NCBI GenBank assembly: GCA_947167215.1
Contig: CAMVHE010000021.1
Span: 1 to 41,150 of the forward strand
DNA: 41,150 nt
Direction: 5' to 3'
DNA from: an uncultured Clostridia bacterium
Lineage (GTDB): Bacteria > Bacillota > Clostridia > Christensenellales > Aristaeellaceae
Shown: positions 16,221 to 23,710 of the stretch, piece by piece
Numbering within the stretch: the first letter of the stretch is position 1
Layout: every line of letters begins with the position of its first letter
The notes under the pieces: model-generated
What the model saw: the letters and a program-made list of their open reading frames with translations, nothing else
Told to the model about the DNA's origin: nothing
The model's database searches: none
Position numbers and translations under genes: made by a program

Positions 16221-16970
16221 CTATTGCTTTGGCTTTGTCAGTCTGCTGACCTGTGTACCGACTTCATACAAAAGCAGCATGGGCACTCCCAGCGCTATCT
16301 GGGAAACAACATCCGGAGGGGTCAGGATTGCCGCAAGAACAAAGATTGCCAGAATAACATATTTTCTCTTGGAGGCAAGCATCTCATAGTTCGTCAGTCC
16401 GGCCTTCGTCGTAATATACAGAAACACCGGAAGCTGAAAAGCAACCCCGAAGGGTACGATAAACCCAAACAGGAAAGAAACATATTTGTCGATAGACAGG
16501 AGCGGCACTGCCAGATTATCACCTGCCACAAGAAAGAAATCTACCGCCAGCAGGTACACTGCCGAATAGCAAAAGCATACCCCAAGCAGAAAGAGCGCAA
16601 CTGCAATAAAGAAAAGGCGTAAAAACGATTTCTTCTCATGATCATAAAGCGCCGGCTCAACAAAGCTCCAGACCTGCCACATGATAAAGGGGCTCACCAC
16701 TACCGCTGCTGCGATCAGGGCAACTTTGAACTTTGTTACCAGTGCCTCGGACATTGCCGTATAGATGATCTCTACGCCCCTGTCACGGATCGGCGTAACG
16801 ATCCAATCCATAAGCTTTTCGATCAGAAGGGTGTAGACAGTAAAAAACACAATGACAACAGCCAGCGCTGATTTGATCAGCACGGATCTCAGCTCAAGAA
16901 GATGAGAAAGAAACGGAGCTGTTTTCTCCTCGCGTGCTGTTTCGGAAGATTCCTGGTTTTGATTCAGCAT
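16221..16970 (-). CDS. tatC: Twin-arginine translocase subunit TatC
   Basis: This 249-residue TatC forms, with TatB, the receptor for twin-arginine signal peptides in the cytoplasmic membrane. It shows six hydrophobic helices and family motifs: FLSHLLELRSVLIKSALAV at the N-terminus, FIMWQVWSFVEPALYDHEKK, and FGFIVPFGVAFQLPVFLY followed by RKYVILAIFVLAAILTPPDVVSQ. The ATG at 16970 follows GGAGAGAG; a TTG slightly upstream is less likely. It is the last of three tat genes. A Tat-signal reductase is divergently encoded 2 kb away, pointing to a dedicated exporter. Confidence 0.95.
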   Translation of the reverse strand: MLNQNQESSETAREEKTAPFLSHLLELRSVLIKSALAVVIVFFTVYTLLIEKLMDWIVTPIRDRGVEIIYTAMSEALVTKFKVALIAAAVVVSPFIMWQVWSFVEPALYDHEKKSFLRLFFIAVALFLLGVCFCYSAVYLLAVDFFLVAGDNLAVPLLSIDKYVSFLFGFIVPFGVAFQLPVFLYITTKAGLTNYEMLASKRKYVILAIFVLAAILTPPDVVSQIALGVPMLLLYEVGTQVSRLTKPKQ

Positions 16971-16991
16971 ATTCTCTCTCCGCAAAAGAAC

Positions 16992-17177
16992 TTATGCCTT
17001 CTTTTCCTCATCTTTCGATGATTCCTCTTTCGCCTGCTGTGCATCATCGCGCACTTCATCTTTAAAATCCCTGATGCTCCTGCCAAGCGCCTTTCCTACC
17101 CCGGACAGCTTGCTTCCTCCAAAAAGCACCAGTGCAAGTATGATAATAAGAATGATTTCGGTTGTTCCCAGATGCAT
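16992..17177 (-). CDS. tatA: Twin-arginine translocase subunit TatA
   Basis: This 61-residue TatA is the pore-forming subunit. It has a short N-terminal hydrophobic helix starting GTTEIILIIILALVLFGG, the hinge SKLSGVGKALGRSIRDFKDE, and a charged, lysine- and glutamate-rich tail. AGGAGG lies ten bases before the ATG. It sits between tatB and tatC with short gaps, as expected of a tatBAC operon. The FGGSKL hinge distinguishes it from the TatB-like neighbour, which has GPRDLP. Confidence 0.93.
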   Translation of the reverse strand: MHLGTTEIILIIILALVLFGGSKLSGVGKALGRSIRDFKDEVRDDAQQAKEESSKDEEKKA

Positions 17178-17191
17178 AACTGATCTTCCTC

Positions 17192-17557
17192 CTATTTCCG
17201 GTAATTCGTTGAAGTTTCTTCCTTTGTCCTGTTGATTTCTTTCCGAACATCCTGCACGCTTCTGTTCATTTCCGCTTCCGCGCTCTTCAGATCGGGCGTG
17301 ATATCGATATCTTTTTTAATGGTGTTGATATCTTTCTGCAGATCTTTCTCTGTTTCCTTAAATTCACTTTCAATATCACGAAATTCTTTTTCGAGGTCTT
17401 CCCATCCTGATTCCTTCTTAATCTCTCTCCACATCAGGCGCAATCCGCGTACCCTTCTTCCAAGCCATCTGGCAACCTTCGGCAGATCGCGCGGCCCTAC
17501 GATTAAAAAAGCAATCAAAAGGATAAGCAGGACTTCCGTAAATCCGACATTGAATAT
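17192..17557 (-). CDS. tatB: Twin-arginine translocase subunit TatB (apparent ATA start)
   Basis: This 121-residue TatB-like protein has the hydrophobic segment FNVGFTEVLLILLIAFLIVG, the TatB hinge GPRDLPKVARWLGRR, and a long acidic/basic amphipathic tail typical of TatB. In-frame codons at the natural start are unusual: the canonical MF(D/N)(I/V)GF opening aligns with an ATA codon (17557-17555). A strong GGGGAGGG lies upstream, with the GGAGG core about eight bases from the ATA. The only in-frame alternative is a TTG 19 codons upstream at 17614, without a good ribosome site and ahead of the predicted -10 box. A nearby ATG (17566-17564) is out of frame. Low-level initiation or a base error are both possible. 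Confidence 0.85.
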   Translation of the reverse strand: MFNVGFTEVLLILLIAFLIVGPRDLPKVARWLGRRVRGLRLMWREIKKESGWEDLEKEFRDIESEFKETEKDLQKDINTIKKDIDITPDLKSAEAEMNRSVQDVRKEINRTKEETSTNYRK

Positions 17558-17584
17558 CTTCCATCCCTCCCCGCTGCAGCCTTG

Positions 17585-17614
17585 ATTATAGGTACCTGTC
17601 TCAGACAAAAGCAA
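17585..17614 (-). promoter_or_regulatory. Promoter of the tat operon
   Basis: On the minus strand, TATAAT (17585-17590) follows TTGCTT (17609-17614) with 18 bases between. The bases just before the -10 (GTACC) resemble those at the divergent reductase promoter (GTACACC), and a matching palindrome lies upstream of both. Confidence 0.65.
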
Positions 17615-17637
17615 GCAACTTCTGTTTTAGTCTGCCG

Positions 17638-17652
17638 GCAACCAAAGGTTGC
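17638..17652. promoter_or_regulatory. Candidate LysR operator upstream of the tat promoter
   Basis: A perfect inverted repeat, GCAACC-N3-GGTTGC, is centred about 67 bases before the predicted tat start site. Read toward tatB it contains the same 14 bases, CAACCTTTGGTTGC, that precede the reductase promoter. It is not a strict T-N11-A LysR box. Binding is inference. Confidence 0.6.
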
Positions 17653-17668
17653 GCTGGTCCCAGTTGGT

Positions 17669-18565
17669 TCATTTTTCCTTGATATTCTGCCGAAAAAAAT
17701 GAACAAGGCCGGAAATCTGTACATCTTCCAGTTCATTCTTGCGGAATACCATCCGGATCTTTTTTTCCGGCATGCCCTGGTCCGTCAGAATCTCCCGAAC
17801 TGCAAAATCGTCTCCCAGGTTGAAATACGAGAAAAGATTGGTTGCAGCCATATATAAGCCCCCCTCTCGAACCAGCGGAAGAATTTGCAGTATATCCATC
17901 GAAGGCGAAACCTTACACTGGATATGCAGTTTCTTATGAACCACATATTTGTTGATATCCTGGTTGTAGTTCTTGGTCACCACCGGCATCAGGATAACCC
18001 GGTTCTCCATATCTTCCATTCTGAGCTTCCGCCTTTCTGCAAGCGGATCCTCGGAACGCATCAGGACAGAAACCGTGTCTTTCTTCAGAATAATCTCACC
18101 TATACGGGAATCCGTCATGCCGTCGTATGCTATTCCAAGATCATAGATGCCATTATGCAATCCCAGAAAGATCTCCTCCGGCGTTGCCACATTGATCCGC
18201 AGTTCCATATCCGGGTTTCTTCTTTTCCATTCCCGGATCAAAGGATATGTCAGGCTCTGCGTCATTCCCGTGCAGACGACAGAAAGCGTCTTCACCCGCT
18301 TTAGCCGGAAAACTTCCAAGTCTTTTTCTGCTTTTTCCACATCCTCCAGTATCTTCACTGCATGCCGGTACAGGCATTCCCCTTCCTGGGTAAATGCAAT
18401 GTTTCCCTTCTGGGAAATGAAGGTCTTTACTCCAAGCGTGCTTTCCAGGTTCCGGATGGATTTGGATATTGCCTGCCGGGAAATATATTGCCTTTCCGCC
18501 GCCTTGGTCATGCTCTGGCACTGATAAAATGCCACATAATTCTCAATTGCAGGCAGGTCTAGCAT
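17669..18565 (-). CDS. LysR-family transcriptional regulator
   Basis: This 298-residue regulator has the LysR N-terminal winged helix (MTKAAERQYISRQAISKSIRNLE, residues about 19-41, with LGVKTFISQ after it) and a two-lobed periplasmic-binding-protein-like effector domain from about 92. The ATG at 18565 follows TAGGAGG. It is encoded between the tat operon and the divergent reductase operon, and the same palindrome occurs near both promoters. The simplest reading is that it senses the reductase substrate, or a related small molecule, and activates both operons. The effector is unknown. Confidence 0.93.
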   Translation of the reverse strand: MLDLPAIENYVAFYQCQSMTKAAERQYISRQAISKSIRNLESTLGVKTFISQKGNIAFTQEGECLYRHAVKILEDVEKAEKDLEVFRLKRVKTLSVVCTGMTQSLTYPLIREWKRRNPDMELRINVATPEEIFLGLHNGIYDLGIAYDGMTDSRIGEIILKKDTVSVLMRSEDPLAERRKLRMEDMENRVILMPVVTKNYNQDINKYVVHKKLHIQCKVSPSMDILQILPLVREGGLYMAATNLFSYFNLGDDFAVREILTDQGMPEKKIRMVFRKNELEDVQISGLVHFFRQNIKEK

Positions 18566-18598
18566 TTTGTTTTTCCTCCTATATTTAATTCATTCTTA

Positions 18599-18627
18599 AT
18601 TTTATTCCTGACATTTTCTACTGTCAA
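18599..18627 (-). promoter_or_regulatory. Promoter of the lysR-type gene
   Basis: On the minus strand, TTGACA (18622-18627) and TAAAAT (18599-18604) are 17 bases apart, close to ideal. The -35 box overlaps the palindrome at 18625-18637, the arrangement expected for autorepression by a LysR protein bound there. Confidence 0.75.
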
Positions 18628-18638
18628 CCTTTGGTTGC
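18624..18638. promoter_or_regulatory. Candidate LysR operator upstream of the reductase promoter
   Basis: The inverted repeat CAACC-TTT-GGTTG (18625-18637) is centred about 65 bases before the predicted reductase start site, the classic position of a LysR recognition site. It overlaps the lysR-gene -35 box. The 14-base CAACCTTTGGTTGC is identical to the copy at 17638-17651 read toward tatB. Confidence 0.65.
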
Positions 18639-18659
18639 GGATATGAAAAGAAAGAGTTC

Positions 18660-18689
18660 TTTACATTACTTAATTCGTACACCTATAAT
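18660..18689 (+). promoter_or_regulatory. Promoter of the reductase operon
   Basis: TATAAT (18684-18689) is preceded by TTTACA (18660-18665) at 18 bases. An imperfect inverted repeat, ATTACTTAATT with AATTTAGGTAAT, spans the region around 18664-18698 and overlaps the promoter. A strong AAGGAGG (18706-18712) precedes the ATG by ten bases. Confidence 0.65.
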
Positions 18690-18722
18690 TTAGGTAATTT
18701 CAACAAAGGAGGTTGAACTTTT

Positions 18723-20504
18723 ATGGACATCAGTCGTCGTAATTTTCTCAAGGGATCCGCAATTGGAACGCTTGGTCTTGTAGCCTCCAGCGTAATCCCC
18801 AGTGTTGTTTCCTCTGCAGTTGCCGAAGAAAACAGTGACATTTCCTGGGACTATGAAGCCGATGTTGTCATCCTTGGTGCCGGCGGTGCCGGTCTGGTAG
18901 CCGGATTAAAGGCCGTGGAAGACGGTGCTTCAGTCATTCTCGTAGAAGCCAACTGGGAAGTCGGCGGCCATGCAGCTGTTTCCGGTGGCCTTCTGCATTC
19001 CGGCGCCGGCACTTCCGTACAGCAGCAGTATGAAATCGAAGACAGCCCCGACCAGTACTACATTGACCACACTGCTGACGGTGTCTATTCCCGTTATAAT
19101 GATCGTGAGTATGTACGCTCCGTCGCCGACTACATGGTCGAAGCATATGACTTTATTCAGGAAAAAGGCGTTATCCTGATTGAGCAGAAGCCGCAGTCTC
19201 TTGCCGGAAACGACCCGGATAAGATTCCGCGCCAGACCCGCGCCAATGCCGATATCGAAAAGTGGACCTACATTCCTTCCGGTCTGACCGCAGAAGAAGG
19301 CAGCAAGGCTTCCAACATGGGTATCGGCCTGACCCGTCCTCTGGAGAGAAGCCTGCGTGAAAGCGGAGCTCAGTTCATTATGAACTATCATATGGATAAG
19401 ATTTACCGTGCGGACAACAATACCGGACGCGTACTGGGCATCCAGGCCAGCTATACTCCCACCATTCTGCCCGGTGAAACTGAACCGTTAAAGGGTCTCT
19501 GGGACAATGGCAATATCGAATCCACCAAGGAAACCATCAATGTCAAGGCCAACAAGAGCGTCATCATCGCAACCGGCGGCCACAGCAGCAATGTGCGTTT
19601 CCGCACAATGTTTGACCCCCGTCAGACGATTGAATATGACGGCGTATCCGGTGAGCCCTTCTCCAAGCAGGATGCTTCCGGCGAACTCGCTGCCCTGGCC
19701 ATCGGTGCTTCCATGGGCACCCTTGCCAACAAGACCCAGGACGGCGGCGTTGACATTACACAGCCCCGTTATTTCGGCTGCCAGTATGGCTACACCAACC
19801 TCCGCTGGGAACCCACCAGCAAGATCTTCAAACTGGCCAGGGCTTCCGGCCTGACCTGCTCCAGCTATGAGGACATCATCCTCGTTAATGCACTGGGCAA
19901 GCGTTTTGCCAATGAGGACAATGCGCTCCTCGGCGGAAAGAATCCGCTCCAGTACACCGGCTACTTCCAGCAGGCACTCAGCAGTGTCATCGTCGATGAG
20001 GGTACCGGCCATGCAAGGCGCATCGGCGGACCGATCTGGGCTATCTTTGACCAGGCTGCCGTTGACAGGCGCGGATGGAGCCTCACCGACCAGGATGTGG
20101 ATCGCGAAGATGGACGTTTCTTCAGCGGCAACACCATTGAAGAACTCGCCCAGAATATCGTGAACAAGTACTATGAGGACATCAAGATGGATCCGGCTGT
20201 CCTGGCAGAGACGATCCGCATGTACAATATGTGCGTAGAAGTCGGCGCCGATCCTGCCTTCGGAAAGACTTCCCTCGAGTACAAGATCGAGCAGGGACCG
20301 TTCTATGCAGCCTGGGCAACCCCCTGTCTGCATGACTGCTGCTCTGGCCTCCGTGTTACCAGCGAAATGCAGGTTGTTGACTATGAAGGCAATGGCATTC
20401 CTGGCCTCTATGCCATCGGCGAATCTTCCGGCGGCATGCGTGTACATGGCTTTGGCCGTGTTCTTACCAGCGCCTACATCGGCGGCAAGTTTGCTGCAAA
20501 ATAA
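18723..20504 (+). CDS. Tat-exported FAD reductase (fumarate reductase/urocanate reductase family)
   Basis: This 593-residue flavoprotein has a twin-arginine signal (SRRNFLKG, residues 4-11) and a probable cleavage after AVA at 34. The FAD_binding_2 fold follows, with the dinucleotide motif GAGGAG at 52-57, the acidic E75, GGHAAVSGG, and a C-terminal IPGLYAIGESSGG. H537 (in HDCCSG) and R573 or R579 lie where soluble fumarate reductases have their substrate-binding histidine and arginine. The surrounding HTMGG and GANR signatures of true fumarate reductases are changed, so the substrate is probably a different unsaturated or oxidised small molecule. There is no FMN or haem domain of its own; the next gene supplies both motifs. 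Family members of this kind act as terminal reductases outside the membrane. Substrate unknown. Confidence 0.9.
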   Translation: MDISRRNFLKGSAIGTLGLVASSVIPSVVSSAVAEENSDISWDYEADVVILGAGGAGLVAGLKAVEDGASVILVEANWEVGGHAAVSGGLLHSGAGTSVQQQYEIEDSPDQYYIDHTADGVYSRYNDREYVRSVADYMVEAYDFIQEKGVILIEQKPQSLAGNDPDKIPRQTRANADIEKWTYIPSGLTAEEGSKASNMGIGLTRPLERSLRESGAQFIMNYHMDKIYRADNNTGRVLGIQASYTPTILPGETEPLKGLWDNGNIESTKETINVKANKSVIIATGGHSSNVRFRTMFDPRQTIEYDGVSGEPFSKQDASGELAALAIGASMGTLANKTQDGGVDITQPRYFGCQYGYTNLRWEPTSKIFKLARASGLTCSSYEDIILVNALGKRFANEDNALLGGKNPLQYTGYFQQALSSVIVDEGTGHARRIGGPIWAIFDQAAVDRRGWSLTDQDVDREDGRFFSGNTIEELAQNIVNKYYEDIKMDPAVLAETIRMYNMCVEVGADPAFGKTSLEYKIEQGPFYAAWATPCLHDCCSGLRVTSEMQVVDYEGNGIPGLYAIGESSGGMRVHGFGRVLTSAYIGGKFAAK

Positions 20505-20529
20505 AGTATCCTTTTAATTCTTTAAGAAC

Positions 20530-20555
20530 GGACAACAGTTAAAAGACTGTTGTCC
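20530..20555 (+). terminator. Hairpin between reductase and FMN/haem protein genes
   Basis: A perfect nine-pair stem (GGACAACAG with CTGTTGTCC, eight-base loop) is followed by TGTTCTTCT rather than a pure T-run. It probably acts as a partial terminator or mRNA stabiliser, giving more reductase than partner transcript. Confidence 0.6.
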
Positions 20556-20582
20556 TGTTCTTCTCTGTCTGAGGTGATATCA

Positions 20583-21125
20583 ATGCGCAAAATTGGTTTT
20601 CTTCTTTTTCTTGTTATGCTGCTGACGGCAGTCACGGCTTTCGCCACTCCCGAAATGAGCCCCGACGGCAGGAGCTGCTATGCTCCCGGCTGTCACCAGT
20701 GGGGCGAAGTTGACAGAGAACTGAAGGAGATTCTGGAAGCACTCGGAGATACCATCGATGATCCCGATCCTTCCAAAATCATCGTGAAGTACAATGAAAA
20801 AGAAATGGAAAATATTCCTGTGGAAGTGCAATATACTCCCGGTGATTATACTGTTGAAGAAAAAGGAATGGAACCCCTCTCCGTAACCCTGACTTTTGAT
20901 GAAACCACCATAACCCAGATTCTTTTCCAGGGAGAACACGAAACTCCGTCAATCGGAGGAGTTGCCGCAAAGAATACCGCAAAGGCAATCATGCTCGCCC
21001 AAAGTGCTGACGTTGATACCGTATCTGGTGCTACCAAAACCAGCGGCGCGCTTATCCGTGCGGCCAAGAACTGCATTCTTCTTGCCCGCGGGGAAGAGAT
21101 TCCTGTTGAAGAGCCTGCAAAATAA
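20583..21125 (+). CDS. Secreted FMN-binding protein with CX4CH haem motif
   Basis: This 180-residue protein has a Sec signal peptide (hydrophobic core to about 18, cleavage likely after AFA at 21). It has a short N-terminal region with C32-x4-C37-H38 (SCYAPGCHQW), a c-type haem motif known from cytochrome c3 proteins. The C-terminal FMN-binding domain contains VSGATKTSG (147-155), the ApbE-type flavinylation signature, with T153 the expected FMN attachment site. It is therefore a candidate single-haem, single-FMN electron carrier between the membrane and the FAD reductase. GAGGTGAT precedes the ATG at 20583; an open extension upstream runs into the hairpin and has no homology. The flavin transferase ApbE is not in this window. 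Haem attachment is inference, supported by the ResBC genes downstream. Confidence 0.82.
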   Translation: MRKIGFLLFLVMLLTAVTAFATPEMSPDGRSCYAPGCHQWGEVDRELKEILEALGDTIDDPDPSKIIVKYNEKEMENIPVEVQYTPGDYTVEEKGMEPLSVTLTFDETTITQILFQGEHETPSIGGVAAKNTAKAIMLAQSADVDTVSGATKTSGALIRAAKNCILLARGEEIPVEEPAK

Positions 21126-21138
21126 CACTGCAAATAAT

Positions 21139-21170
21139 GCCATAGAGCGATTTTCCTCTATGGCTTTTTT
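21139..21170 (+). terminator. Intrinsic terminator or attenuator after the FMN/haem gene
   Basis: GCCATAGAG (21139-21147) pairs perfectly with CTCTATGGC (21156-21164) and six T residues follow. It lies just 15 bases before the next gene, so it probably lets only part of the transcription continue into the maturation genes. Confidence 0.8.
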
Positions 21171-21184
21171 CAAGAGAGACAATT

Positions 21185-22033
21185 ATGGAAACAAAAGAAC
21201 TGCAACTAAGCATCTCCATCCCTTTCTCCTATACTAATAAAATGGATGAACTGTCCGGAATAACGTTGATCCGCCGCCCTGAGAGAACCCTTGTCTATCA
21301 TTACGTTCGGGCCTTGTGCAGGGAAATTGAAAGCCTCGCCGGTGATCTGGACGAAGTATCGCTGTGTGCCATTCGGTTTATCGGCGGAAACATTCATTTC
21401 CTATGGAAGGATGATCTGGAAAAAATCATGACCACCCTTTCCCGCGTTTTCCGTTTTTCCGACAACATTGAAATCGTATCGTATGCCGAGCCCGGACAGA
21501 TGACTTCCGGCCCGTGCAGCGTCCTTCAGGCTTTCCATTTTTCCCAGATTCTTTCCATTCCCACCTATGATCACAATGAAAGCAGAATCGCGGGAATTGC
21601 TTTCAAGGCTTTAAATTCCCTCGATTTTTATACAGGAAAAAACATTCCGATCTTTGGCCTCCGTACTTCCCTTGGTCTGGTAGAAAGAACCCAGGAACAG
21701 TGGGATCTGGAACTGCAGGGAATCCGGGAACTGAAACCGGAGGTCATCGAATTCACATTACCCAGCGTCCCCCAGAACGCTTCTCTGATGCGTTCCTTCC
21801 TGGAGAGCCTTCTGGATATCGGTTATTCCGAGGTTTCTTCCAACATTTACTCTCTGGGAAGAAAGCCCGTATTCCAGTATTCGCGCACTGGAGAATATCT
21901 TGGCGCAGGCCTTGACAACTTCACGCGTTTTGACGGCTATCTGACGCATACCACATCCAACATTCAGCAGTATATTGACAATTCTCCCCAATTTGAAAAA
22001 ATCCTTCAGAGTGCAGAACAATATGATACATAA
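21185..22033 (+). CDS. HemW/HemN-like protein lacking the Fe-S cysteines
   Basis: This 282-residue protein aligns along its length with the radical SAM enzymes HemN/HemW. LSISIPFSYTNKMDELSG sits where HIPFCxxxCxYC should be, IRFIGGNIHFL matches FFGGGTPSLL, and IEIVSYAEPGQMT matches EITxEANPGTLT. The stretch FGLRTSLGLVERTQEQWDL matches the GLPGQTxExW region, and the end, GEYLGAGLDNFTRFDGYLT, matches the HemW C-terminus. No cysteine lies near the N-terminus (only C45, C61 and C111), so it cannot hold the SAM-binding [4Fe-4S] cluster in the usual way. HemW is a haem chaperone rather than an oxidase. With a CX4CH protein upstream and ResBC overlapping downstream, a haem-handling role is the natural guess. 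It overlaps resB by eleven bases. Confidence 0.72.
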   Translation: METKELQLSISIPFSYTNKMDELSGITLIRRPERTLVYHYVRALCREIESLAGDLDEVSLCAIRFIGGNIHFLWKDDLEKIMTTLSRVFRFSDNIEIVSYAEPGQMTSGPCSVLQAFHFSQILSIPTYDHNESRIAGIAFKALNSLDFYTGKNIPIFGLRTSLGLVERTQEQWDLELQGIRELKPEVIEFTLPSVPQNASLMRSFLESLLDIGYSEVSSNIYSLGRKPVFQYSRTGEYLGAGLDNFTRFDGYLTHTTSNIQQYIDNSPQFEKILQSAEQYDT

Positions 22034-22949
22034 GATATTCCGTTTTCTCTCCAGCATGCGGTTTGCAGTTATTCTGCTCATTGCCTGTGCACTGGTGCTT
22101 GGCATTCATTCCCTGGTGGCTTCAACCCCCGTAACCGAATTTCTGCCCGCAAGAATTCTTTTTCTACTTCTTTTCATCAGTTTGTTTTCCTGTGTTGTAA
22201 AGCAGGTACTTCTTTTCCGGAAAATCCCCGCTTCCCGCAGGCTTTATCATTTATGCATCATCGCCCTGCATGCAAGCATTCTCATGATCATGATCGGCTT
22301 TCTCATGAATGAGCTTCGTGGGTACAAGCGTTCCGTCTGGATCAGTGAAGAACAGGAAATCAACGTGCTGGAATCTCAGCTTCTGTCTCTGAACAGCAAT
22401 ATCCGGCTCACCTGGTCGAATCTTTCCCTGAACGGAGACGGTGAAATTGAGCATTGTGAAATCGGTCTTTCCTCCGGGCAGGACACCACCACCGTAACCC
22501 TCACTCATCCCGGCCGTCTCGGTTCAAACAAAGTCTATTACTCCAGTGCCGCTGACAGCGTACATATGACGCTCCATGCAGGGAATACGGATCAAACCGC
22601 TGAACTATATCAAAATGAGCCTTACCAGCTGGATAATCACAAAAGCATCATGCTGTACCGCTATCTGCCGTTTTATGATTCTTCTGCCAATGCAGTACAT
22701 TCCCCGGAAACCGGAAAGCCCGTCGTAGTTTTTTATTACGGAGAAGAGGCATCCCCTAAGCCAATGATCTCCTATCTTGATCAGGACTGTTCCCTGGAGG
22801 ATGGCATTTCCGCAGAATTTACGGCCCCGCAAATATGGTATTATCTTACCTTCAAATATGATCCCGGCATTCACCTGGTCATGCTCGGCGGGCTTATCCT
22901 GTGCCTGTCCACACTCCTCATTCCGTTTATAAGGGAGAAACACCTATGA
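22023..22949 (+). CDS. resB: ResB/Ccs1-like cytochrome c maturation protein
   Basis: This 308-residue protein has the ResB layout: two N-terminal helices (SMRFAVILLIACALVLGIHSL, then ARILFLLLFISLFSCVV), a third with histidines (LYHLCIIALHASILMIMIG), a large extracytoplasmic domain, and a final helix starting KYDPGIHLVMLGG, a typical ResB ending. It is shorter than the usual 450-550 residues, mostly in the outer domain. With ResC it exports haem and attaches it to cysteines of apocytochromes (system II). The ATG at 22023 overlaps the HemW-like gene, and its own stop overlaps resC by four bases. Confidence 0.82.
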   Translation: MIHKIFRFLSSMRFAVILLIACALVLGIHSLVASTPVTEFLPARILFLLLFISLFSCVVKQVLLFRKIPASRRLYHLCIIALHASILMIMIGFLMNELRGYKRSVWISEEQEINVLESQLLSLNSNIRLTWSNLSLNGDGEIEHCEIGLSSGQDTTTVTLTHPGRLGSNKVYYSSAADSVHMTLHAGNTDQTAELYQNEPYQLDNHKSIMLYRYLPFYDSSANAVHSPETGKPVVVFYYGEEASPKPMISYLDQDCSLEDGISAEFTAPQIWYYLTFKYDPGIHLVMLGGLILCLSTLLIPFIREKHL

Positions 22950-23710
22950 GCGTTCTCATTCTCGCTGACGCAGTCTGCGCACTTGTTCTTCTGGTTCTTT
23001 CCTGCTTTTTTTACTGGAAAAAGAACGTTTCCCCTGCAGGAAAGATGACCTTCATTTCCACGCTCCTTCTGATCCTCGCGCTGGTTTTGAGGGCCATATA
23101 TCTGCGCAGGCTTCCCCTGACATCCGGTGCGGATTTCATTCTCTGGTTCTGCTCCGTCACCATGTTTTTCTCCTGCATTGCTTCTTACCGGAGGGATTCC
23201 GATACCAGCTTTTATCTCTGCATCATTTCTTCCATCTTGATGCTGATCATGCTCCTCCTGATGTCCTCCCAGCTGGCATCCTCCCCGGCTCTTTCTCCCC
23301 TGTTGAAGAGTCCCTTGCTCGTCGTTCATGTGCTTTTTGCTGTAATTGCCTATTCGCTCTTTGCATTCAGCGCAGCCGTGAGCGCCATTTCGCTCAAGAA
23401 GAAAGAAACCGGCCGTCTCCTTTTTGTTGTCCGGCTTGTCCGCTTCGGCTTCATCACTCTGACGCTTACCATTGTTCTCGGCGCGGTATGGGCAGAAGAG
23501 GCATGGGGCAGCTACTGGAGCTGGGACCCGAAGGAAACATGGGCACTGATTACCTGGCTGATTTATGCCTTTATCCTTCACCAGTACAAAAGGATTAAGG
23601 AGAAAAATGTTCACATCCTTGTACTGGCCGGGTTTGCCGTCTCCATCTTTACTTTCCTCGGCGTCAATTATCTCCTGCCGGGGCTGCACACGTATGCCAA
23701 TGCAAACTGA
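22946..23710 (+). CDS. resC: ResC/CcsA-like cytochrome c maturation protein
   Basis: This 254-residue multi-helix membrane protein has the tryptophan-rich haem-handling motif WGSYWSWDPKETWALITW (near residue 190), the hallmark of the CcmF/CcsA family. A conserved histidine precedes it in VHVLFAVIAYSLFAFSA, and the C-terminus contains FLGVNYLLPGLHTYAN, close to the family ending. The ATG at 22946 overlaps the resB stop codon. Specialised CcsA relatives are known to serve single unusual haem motifs, so a dedicated pair for the CX4CH protein upstream is reasonable. A wider role for other cytochromes in this genome cannot be excluded. Confidence 0.9.
   Translation: MSVLILADAVCALVLLVLSCFFYWKKNVSPAGKMTFISTLLLILALVLRAIYLRRLPLTSGADFILWFCSVTMFFSCIASYRRDSDTSFYLCIISSILMLIMLLLMSSQLASSPALSPLLKSPLLVVHVLFAVIAYSLFAFSAAVSAISLKKKETGRLLFVVRLVRFGFITLTLTIVLGAVWAEEAWGSYWSWDPKETWALITWLIYAFILHQYKRIKEKNVHILVLAGFAVSIFTFLGVNYLLPGLHTYANAN

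Follow-up and report, generated by a model that had tools for sequence, protein, structure and literature searches.

A divergent gene module joining a Tat-signal flavin reductase, an FMN/CX4CH carrier and the sole detected Tat operon of a Clostridia draft genome in a predicted common regulon

We analysed a stretch of 41,150 nucleotides (the window; contig CAMVHE010000021.1 of assembly GCA_947167215.1) from an uncultured Clostridia bacterium of the Aristaeellaceae. For positions 16,221 to 23,710, an initial annotation had described nine genes around one divergent promoter region as a self-contained module for extracytoplasmic electron transfer. The module combines twin-arginine translocation (Tat) genes, a LysR-type regulator, a flavin adenine dinucleotide (FAD) reductase, a secreted protein with motifs for flavin mononucleotide (FMN) and haem, a HemW-like protein, and ResB and CcsA (ResC) of cytochrome maturation system II. 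The window makes up contig 21 of a draft assembly (G000; 3,834,103 bases, 204 contigs, completeness 96.24, contamination 7.14). All nine open reading frames were present at their positions, and Pfam and NCBIfam profile searches with curated cut-offs confirmed the families. The module consists of two divergent units with 18566-18722 between them. The minus strand carries LysR-tatB-tatA-tatC, with the regulator running in the direction of tatBAC, and the plus strand carries reductase, carrier, HemW-like gene, resB and ccsA. The HemW-like gene overlaps resB by 11 bp and resB overlaps ccsA by 4 bp. Small start corrections were made for the carrier (ATG at 20583) and tatB. The features, with E-values of profile matches, are:

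16221..16970, minus strand: tatC (PF00902, 6.9e-63)
16992..17177, minus strand: tatA (TatA_B_E, 2.8e-16)
17192..17557, minus strand: tatB (TIGR01410, 2.1e-15, 57.0 bits versus a cut-off of 56.5; TatA_B_E, 1.2e-8); ATA start uncertain
17639..17651: palindrome CAACCAAAGGTTG, proposed operator upstream of tatB, one of two sites in 3.83 Mb
17669..18565, minus strand: LysR-type regulator (PF03466, 3e-14; PF00126, 9.2e-12)
18599..18627, minus strand: promoter-like TTGACA-17-TAAAAT of the LysR gene, 11/12 consensus (a consensus match only), its -35 box overlapping the palindrome
18625..18637: palindrome CAACCTTTGGTTG, proposed operator in the divergent promoter, second of the two genome sites
18660..18689, plus strand: promoter-like TTTACA-18-TATAAT of the reductase gene, 11/12 consensus (a consensus match only)
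18723..20504, plus strand: Tat-signal FAD reductase without an FMN domain of its own (FAD_binding_2, PF00890, 9.6e-34)
20530..20555, plus strand: hairpin in the reductase/carrier gap (gap z -5.60)
20583..21125, plus strand: secreted FMN_bind carrier (PF04205, 9.3e-12) with DTVSGAT and CYAPGCH (CX4CH) in its sequence
21139..21164, plus strand: hairpin followed by six T, carrier/HemW-like gap (gap z -3.52)
21185..22033, plus strand: short HemW-like pseudo-radical-SAM (S-adenosylmethionine) protein, remote NCBIfam hemN/HemW match, without CX3CX2C or HNxxYW
22023..22949, plus strand: resB (ccsB; PF05140, 3.4e-8)
22946..23710, plus strand: ccsA (resC; PF01578, 2.7e-39), WWD motif WGSYWSWDPKETW recognised by eye

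Both units carry the same palindrome, CAACC-AAA-GGTTG, which lies in the gap between the LysR gene and tatB and, as an inverted copy, in the gap between the LysR and reductase genes. With up to one mismatch allowed, these two were the sole sites in the window, versus 0.10 expected by shuffling. The exact palindrome occurred at two sites in the whole 3.83-Mb genome, both in the module (reversed-pattern control: 0), and was missing from 255 of 260 loci obtained by genome searches, the remaining five being copies of the window. Its centre in the divergent promoter lies about 65 bp ahead of the reductase transcription start as estimated by hand. An operator ahead of a divergent gene and over the regulator's own -35 box is the known layout of LysR-type autorepression and divergent activation. 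Because of the palindrome pair and this promoter layout, tatBAC and the reductase operon probably share one regulator, in line with the single module of the initial annotation. The palindrome pair and the two intergenic hairpins are the features beyond chance. The hairpin behind the reductase gene has a moderately T-rich tail and may grade expression inside the operon.

The module encodes TatA, TatB and TatC (TatB with an uncertain start codon) as well as a substrate with a twin-arginine signal. TatC was represented in the genome by a single PF00902 match, that of the module. A Tat-signal model was built from seven leaders, including that of the window reductase and three from G067 and G076 (G, C and L numbers are our handles for genomes, contigs and loci). 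Its single credible match in this genome was the window reductase (E 2e-16; next match 0.335), with the reservation that the model is of the reductase type and other signal types might escape it. The same model gave 15 matches under 1e-3 in G067 and 10 in G076. The reductase leader reads MDISRRNFLKG and reached 18.9 bits with PF10518, under the cut-off of 22.7. TatC was present in nine of the ten related genomes searched, and on another Clostridiales contig (L094) tatC, tatA and tatB adjoin this reductase type. That is, the 'private' translocase of the initial annotation holds for this genome, where it is the sole one found, and is not a general rule. The natural tatB start (minus strand, 17555-17557) is an ATA behind the strong Shine-Dalgarno-like GGGGAGGG, with no ATG, GTG or TTG, and is either a rare start or a sequencing error. 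In G067 (L053 and others; stated completeness 90%), no TatC was found despite the 15 signal matches. In G138 (C283:3980-4577), TatC matches as two overlapping pieces, one with two internal TGA codons, pointing to a broken gene or an assembly error.

With urocanate reductase, flavocytochrome c3 and 3-ketosteroid dehydrogenases as its PDB matches, the reductase is assigned by sequence to the flavocytochrome c/3-ketosteroid dehydrogenase superfamily. It is probably not a fumarate reductase, as the initial annotation had suggested from its substrate motif. Membership was rejected on two grounds: the score with TIGR01813 (flavo_cyto_c) was 165.3 bits versus a cut-off of 285.45, and the column of Arg402, which we take to be the catalytic residue of fumarate reductase, held no arginine in four aligned rows, in a stretch anchored by GKRFxNE. 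The entry 1lj1, with alanine at this position, is presumably the R402A mutant. An active-site histidine is retained in the alignment.

Relatives of the reductase were sought by pattern in one genome of each species; of the 79 loci obtained, the first 20 (L090-L109) were examined. Such loci occur, among others, in oral-type Treponema species, Atopostipes and Christensenella. In 18 of the 20 the enzyme was at least 50% identical to the window reductase, and 16 of these 18 had the FMN-attachment motif near the end of the reductase's own frame. The other two were L090 (same contig as G067), with the motif in the next gene, and L105, whose reductase frame ends at the contig edge. Of 17 rows in the alignment, 13 had a confirmed PF04205 domain; the exceptions were the window enzyme, L090, L107 and L109. 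The FMN motif in the same chain of relatives is the best evidence for the window FMN protein as electron donor of the reductase. By this comparison, the carrier appears as the split-off partner of a reductase type that mostly carries the FMN domain in its own chain. Six of the 20 related reductases had a twin-arginine motif within the first 60 residues (L090, L104, L105, L106, L107, L109), and a divergent LysR gene was also seen at L090 (by eye), L105 and L106. The L107 contig is labelled as a metagenome-assembled genome of Klebsiella pneumoniae, is possibly mis-binned, and encodes a reductase 42% identical to the window enzyme. The Treponema species at L097-L103 have the fused-FMN version with a lipobox-like leader.

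By eye, the leader of the carrier is of the Sec type; the protein has one N-terminal copy of CYAPGCH and the DTVSGAT motif. The standard c-type haem motif is CXXCH; the carrier is without it, and CX4CH is its sole haem-type motif. From these motifs we infer haem on CX4CH and covalent FMN on DTVSGAT. No second CX4CH/FMN protein was found: among the carrier matches listed in 150 relatives, alignments begin at residue 54 or later, past the CX4CH. A codon scan of the whole genome for CX4CH gave 429 matches versus 195 in the control and was thus uninformative. The flavin transferase ApbE is encoded once in the genome (G000:C157, E 2.1e-63), unlinked and thus outside the module as annotated. ResB is divergent yet recognisable, and the PF05140 and PF01578 matches both exceed their cut-offs. 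The genome holds two ResBC pairs. The pair of the module is separate from one that adjoins NrfA, which agrees with the annotated system II of its own. A third CcsA match, at C45, was weak (7.1e-4, under the cut-off) and its frames looked unlike CcsA by eye. The NrfA locus (G000:C187; L181, 837-4205) encodes a pentahaem protein with CXXCK and four CXXCH (PF02335, 2.4e-72), followed by ResB and CcsA.

Alternatively, the CX4CH segment could be free of haem, with the module's ResBC serving a cytochrome encoded elsewhere. This fits the departure from the standard motif, the single CX4CH/FMN sequence known from this analysis and the fused relatives, which have the FMN domain alone. We regard it as unlikely: ResBC shares the carrier's operon, and NrfA has a ResB-CcsA pair of its own. 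For a carrier that binds haem at CX4CH, a dedicated lyase is plausible by analogy, because the module has a separate ResBC pair and dedicated CcsBA machines for CXXCK and CX15CH motifs are described (PMC10663686).

The HemW-like protein has 282 residues, about 100 fewer than HemW. It matched NCBIfam hemN with 4.2e-9 (35.7 bits versus a cut-off of 324.95) and HemW (TIGR00539) with 1.1e-6 (28.0 bits versus 205.4); no Pfam family scored above its cut-off. Judged by these scores, the kinship to HemN/HemW is real but remote. The initial annotation had called the protein cluster-less, and it indeed lacks the CX3CX2C of the 4Fe-4S cluster, which all 13 HemW proteins of our tree set have. HNxxYW, the haem motif described in PMC10320005, was present in 10 of the 13 HemW versus none of ten short proteins. 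An identity as HemW was rejected on scores, cluster cysteines and HNxxYW alike.

Kin were collected by similarity in 150 relatives and in genomes of the same order (396) and family (308; best matches only). Besides many true HemW, this gave at least ten HemW-like proteins, chosen for a short frame or missing cysteines; the short frames of G521 and G068 are HemW running off contig ends and were left out. In the tree, all ten were separated from the 13 HemW by a 99/98 branch. The cluster cysteine motif is lost in five of them; it reads CX4CX2C in G018:C63, CX3CX2C in G076:C101 and CxC in two, and one has a single cysteine. Three cysteines are preserved in the short HemW-like genes at L089 (5124-5987; CX4CX2C) and L253 (2581-3471; CX3CX2C), which both adjoin Tat reductases, and because of these two some members of the family may be active radical SAM enzymes. 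At L256 (278-2009; G666:C128), a LysR gene overlaps a short HemW-like gene with CxC, and no reductase is in view.

Seven of the ten HemW-like genes are next to a gene of the same strand for an FAD/FMN reductase or for the FMN partner of one, lying downstream of it in the window, G067, G024, G076:C166, G649 and G018:C63 and upstream in G076:C101. Such reductases were found at none of 52 HemW control loci with 1.5-kb flanks (Fisher 2.4e-7), a control set that includes two CX4CX2C proteins (L065, L087) and many genomes that may lack these reductases. Against 12 same-genus controls rich in reductases, with at least five carrier-like matches each (G003, G005, G007-G011, G017, G019, G020, G026, G027), the contrast was 7/10 versus 0/12 (Fisher 7.0e-4). 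The partner reductase had a twin-arginine leader in all six cases (of the seven) with the start covered, a count weakened by the many Tat-type reductases in those genomes. In five of the six downstream cases, a hairpin (-15 to -31 kcal/mol; z -3.52, -2.74, -3.42, -1.77 and -3.90) lies in the 59-75-nt gap before the HemW-like gene; the sixth, with a gap of 28 nt, had none. In G024 the room after the hairpin is, by eye, too small for a full promoter. For this reason, read-through probably supplies the HemW-like gene there with a lower level of transcript, fitting a helper.

The initial annotation had by implication placed the HemW-like protein in haem maturation, and a haem chaperone handing haem to ResBC for the carrier would explain the overlap with resB. 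The overlapping genes and the remote kinship to HemN/HemW suit this role, and the HemW-like CgdH2 of Campylobacter is reported to bind haem without HNxxYW (PMC10320005). We consider a haem chaperone improbable all the same. The kin adjoin reductases, and no haem gene was seen in the immediate vicinity; HNxxYW is absent from all ten, and CcsA was not found in G024 and G076, both of which have HemW-like kin. The reductase neighbours and the two genomes in which CcsA was not found associate the protein with flavin reductases rather than with haem. Judged from gene neighbourhood and motifs, the window protein therefore more likely assists the reductase in the cytosol than acts as a haem chaperone.

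We propose, with somewhat better than even confidence, that the genes of the module form a single regulon that carries out one extracytoplasmic reduction. LysR would bind both palindromes; at the reductase-side copy it could act as activator of the reductase promoter and repressor of its own gene, and the second bound copy would lie upstream of tatBAC. The reductase would fold with FAD in the cytosol, aided by the short HemW-like protein, and leave through TatABC, apparently the genome's sole Tat system. The unlinked ApbE would attach FMN covalently to the carrier at DTVSGAT, and the module's ResBC would add haem at CX4CH. Electrons would pass from a membrane donor via haem and FMN to the FAD of the reductase and on to an organic, probably non-fumarate acceptor. 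The hairpins probably lower expression stepwise, from the reductase over the carrier to the coupled HemW-like/resB/ccsA block. A bolder joint reading, which we put forward tentatively and hold to be distinctly less probable, sees in the HemW-like protein a new class of cytosolic chaperones for Tat flavoenzymes, with the sole Tat system and a CX4CH-specific lyase in one LysR regulon around a split FMN/haem carrier. Here, radical SAM folds that had lost cluster and haem site would load the FAD reductase, or proofread it, ahead of its export.

Several observations weigh against the single regulon or parts of it. All statements of the type 'sole' depend on the completeness and binning of the draft (204 contigs, contamination 7.14). 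The full bundle was seen at no other locus examined, and BLAST detected no reductase at the seven distinct tat loci of relatives (L177 and L189 are the same place), whose flanks go down to 1.5 kb a side. Fourteen of the 20 related reductases have no twin-arginine motif in the first 60 residues, so the enzyme family as such is not dependent on Tat. CX4CH is known from one sequence and thus has no support from conservation. Promoter-like matches in the region did not exceed shuffles (10 versus 8.5), and the LysR-tatB gap shows no unusual fold (z 0.24). The PDB alignment scores poorly around the missing arginine. The ten HemW-like proteins are divergent, five of them on long branches, including that of the window, whose placing is unsure. 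Three of the ten genes are without an adjoining reductase: G018:C156, which lies at a contig end, G666, and G138, where an old-yellow-enzyme-like gene is found 1.5 kb away with one gene between. G076:C101 was chosen partly after the reductase had been seen on its contig; without it the count is 6/9 (Fisher 1.5e-6 versus 0/52 and 1.5e-3 versus 0/12).

For the bundle as a system, the initial annotation had named a lack of neighbourhood in related genomes as evidence to the contrary. This is in part what we found: relatives are mostly FMN-fused, and the haem segment, ResB and CcsA all went undetected by BLAST in the 20 related reductase loci, some of them short contigs. A conserved nine-gene system was therefore rejected. 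Least probable of the alternatives is a chance patchwork, in which a mobile reductase-carrier-ResBC unit landed beside a tat operon without the genes working as one system: the unique bundle, the seven reductase-free tat loci and a module GC content of 0.489 versus 0.539-0.615 across 75 flank windows of equal size speak for it, but the two units have the palindrome in common, the sole TatC and the sole credible Tat-signal match adjoin, tatBAC lies within the same low-GC stretch and L094 likewise pairs tat genes with this reductase type.

Compared with described systems, the single regulon has mostly familiar parts. By family assignment, reductase and FMN protein fall among the flavinylated fumarate-reductase-like systems, ResBC under system II and the exporter under Tat. 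These flavinylated oxidoreductases (PF00890 and PF04205) consist of an extracytosolic FAD reductase whose ApbE-type FMN domain is fused to it or encoded by a neighbour gene; the parts of an eLife 2021 study consulted here (PMC8238504) describe FMN and cytochrome mostly as alternatives. The module likewise has a PF00890 reductase with FMN_bind next door and ApbE in the genome. It differs from the systems in those parts by a separate FMN domain with an added CX4CH, its own ResBC, a Tat operon and the HemW-like gene. FMN and c-type haem in one secreted protein recall the multi-flavinylated RnfG with a multi-heme domain of Christensenellales in the same study; RnfG there belongs to the RNF complex and has several hemes, whereas the carrier is small, with a single FMN and a single CX4CH, and lies beside a reductase. 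As with NrfI and CcsA1 of Wolinella (PMC10663686), an extra system II synthase stands beside a cytochrome with an unusual motif. Here the motif is CX4CH instead of CXXCK or CX15CH, ResB and CcsA are unfused, and the specificity is predicted.

The HemW-like protein shares with HemW and HemN (TIGR00539, TIGR00538) a remote kinship over the radical SAM core. It is distinguished from them by the missing CX3CX2C and HNxxYW, a length of about 280 versus about 370-390 residues and the genomic link to flavin reductases. PsgB (TIGR04419), compared by library name, is a named HemN-related non-iron pseudo-SAM protein. The window protein matched it without significance (0.055), and two kin matched with 1.1e-6 and 1.4e-6, far under the cut-off. 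Its genomic association suggests a role like that of redox enzyme maturation proteins, cytosolic helpers encoded by Tat-exported redox enzymes. In the portion of that literature used here, no sequence kinship to them was seen, and the substrate would be a flavoprotein, not a molybdoenzyme. Our literature search, with most subscription journals outside it, returned no description of a cluster-less HemW-like partner of Tat reductases or of a CX4CH/FMN carrier. New here are the combination, the CX4CH/FMN carrier, the palindrome shared with the sole Tat operon, and an accessory of HemW-like type that is possibly a new family.

If the proposal is true, one regulon would hold a complete exported electron-transfer route, exporter included, and provide a test case for a Tat system that serves essentially one enzyme. 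CX4CH would be added to the haem motifs possibly served by a lyase of their own. In addition, there would be an undescribed accessory family for exported flavin reductases, enzymes that are numerous in related Clostridia and whose substrate is often not known. The palindrome and the operon layout make the proposal testable by induction.

Without evident relation to the module, genes for a metallophosphatase and a GGDEF protein lie on one flank, and on the other those for a beta-lactamase-fold protein, a ROK regulator, an ABC transporter and a Gfo/Idh oxidoreductase.

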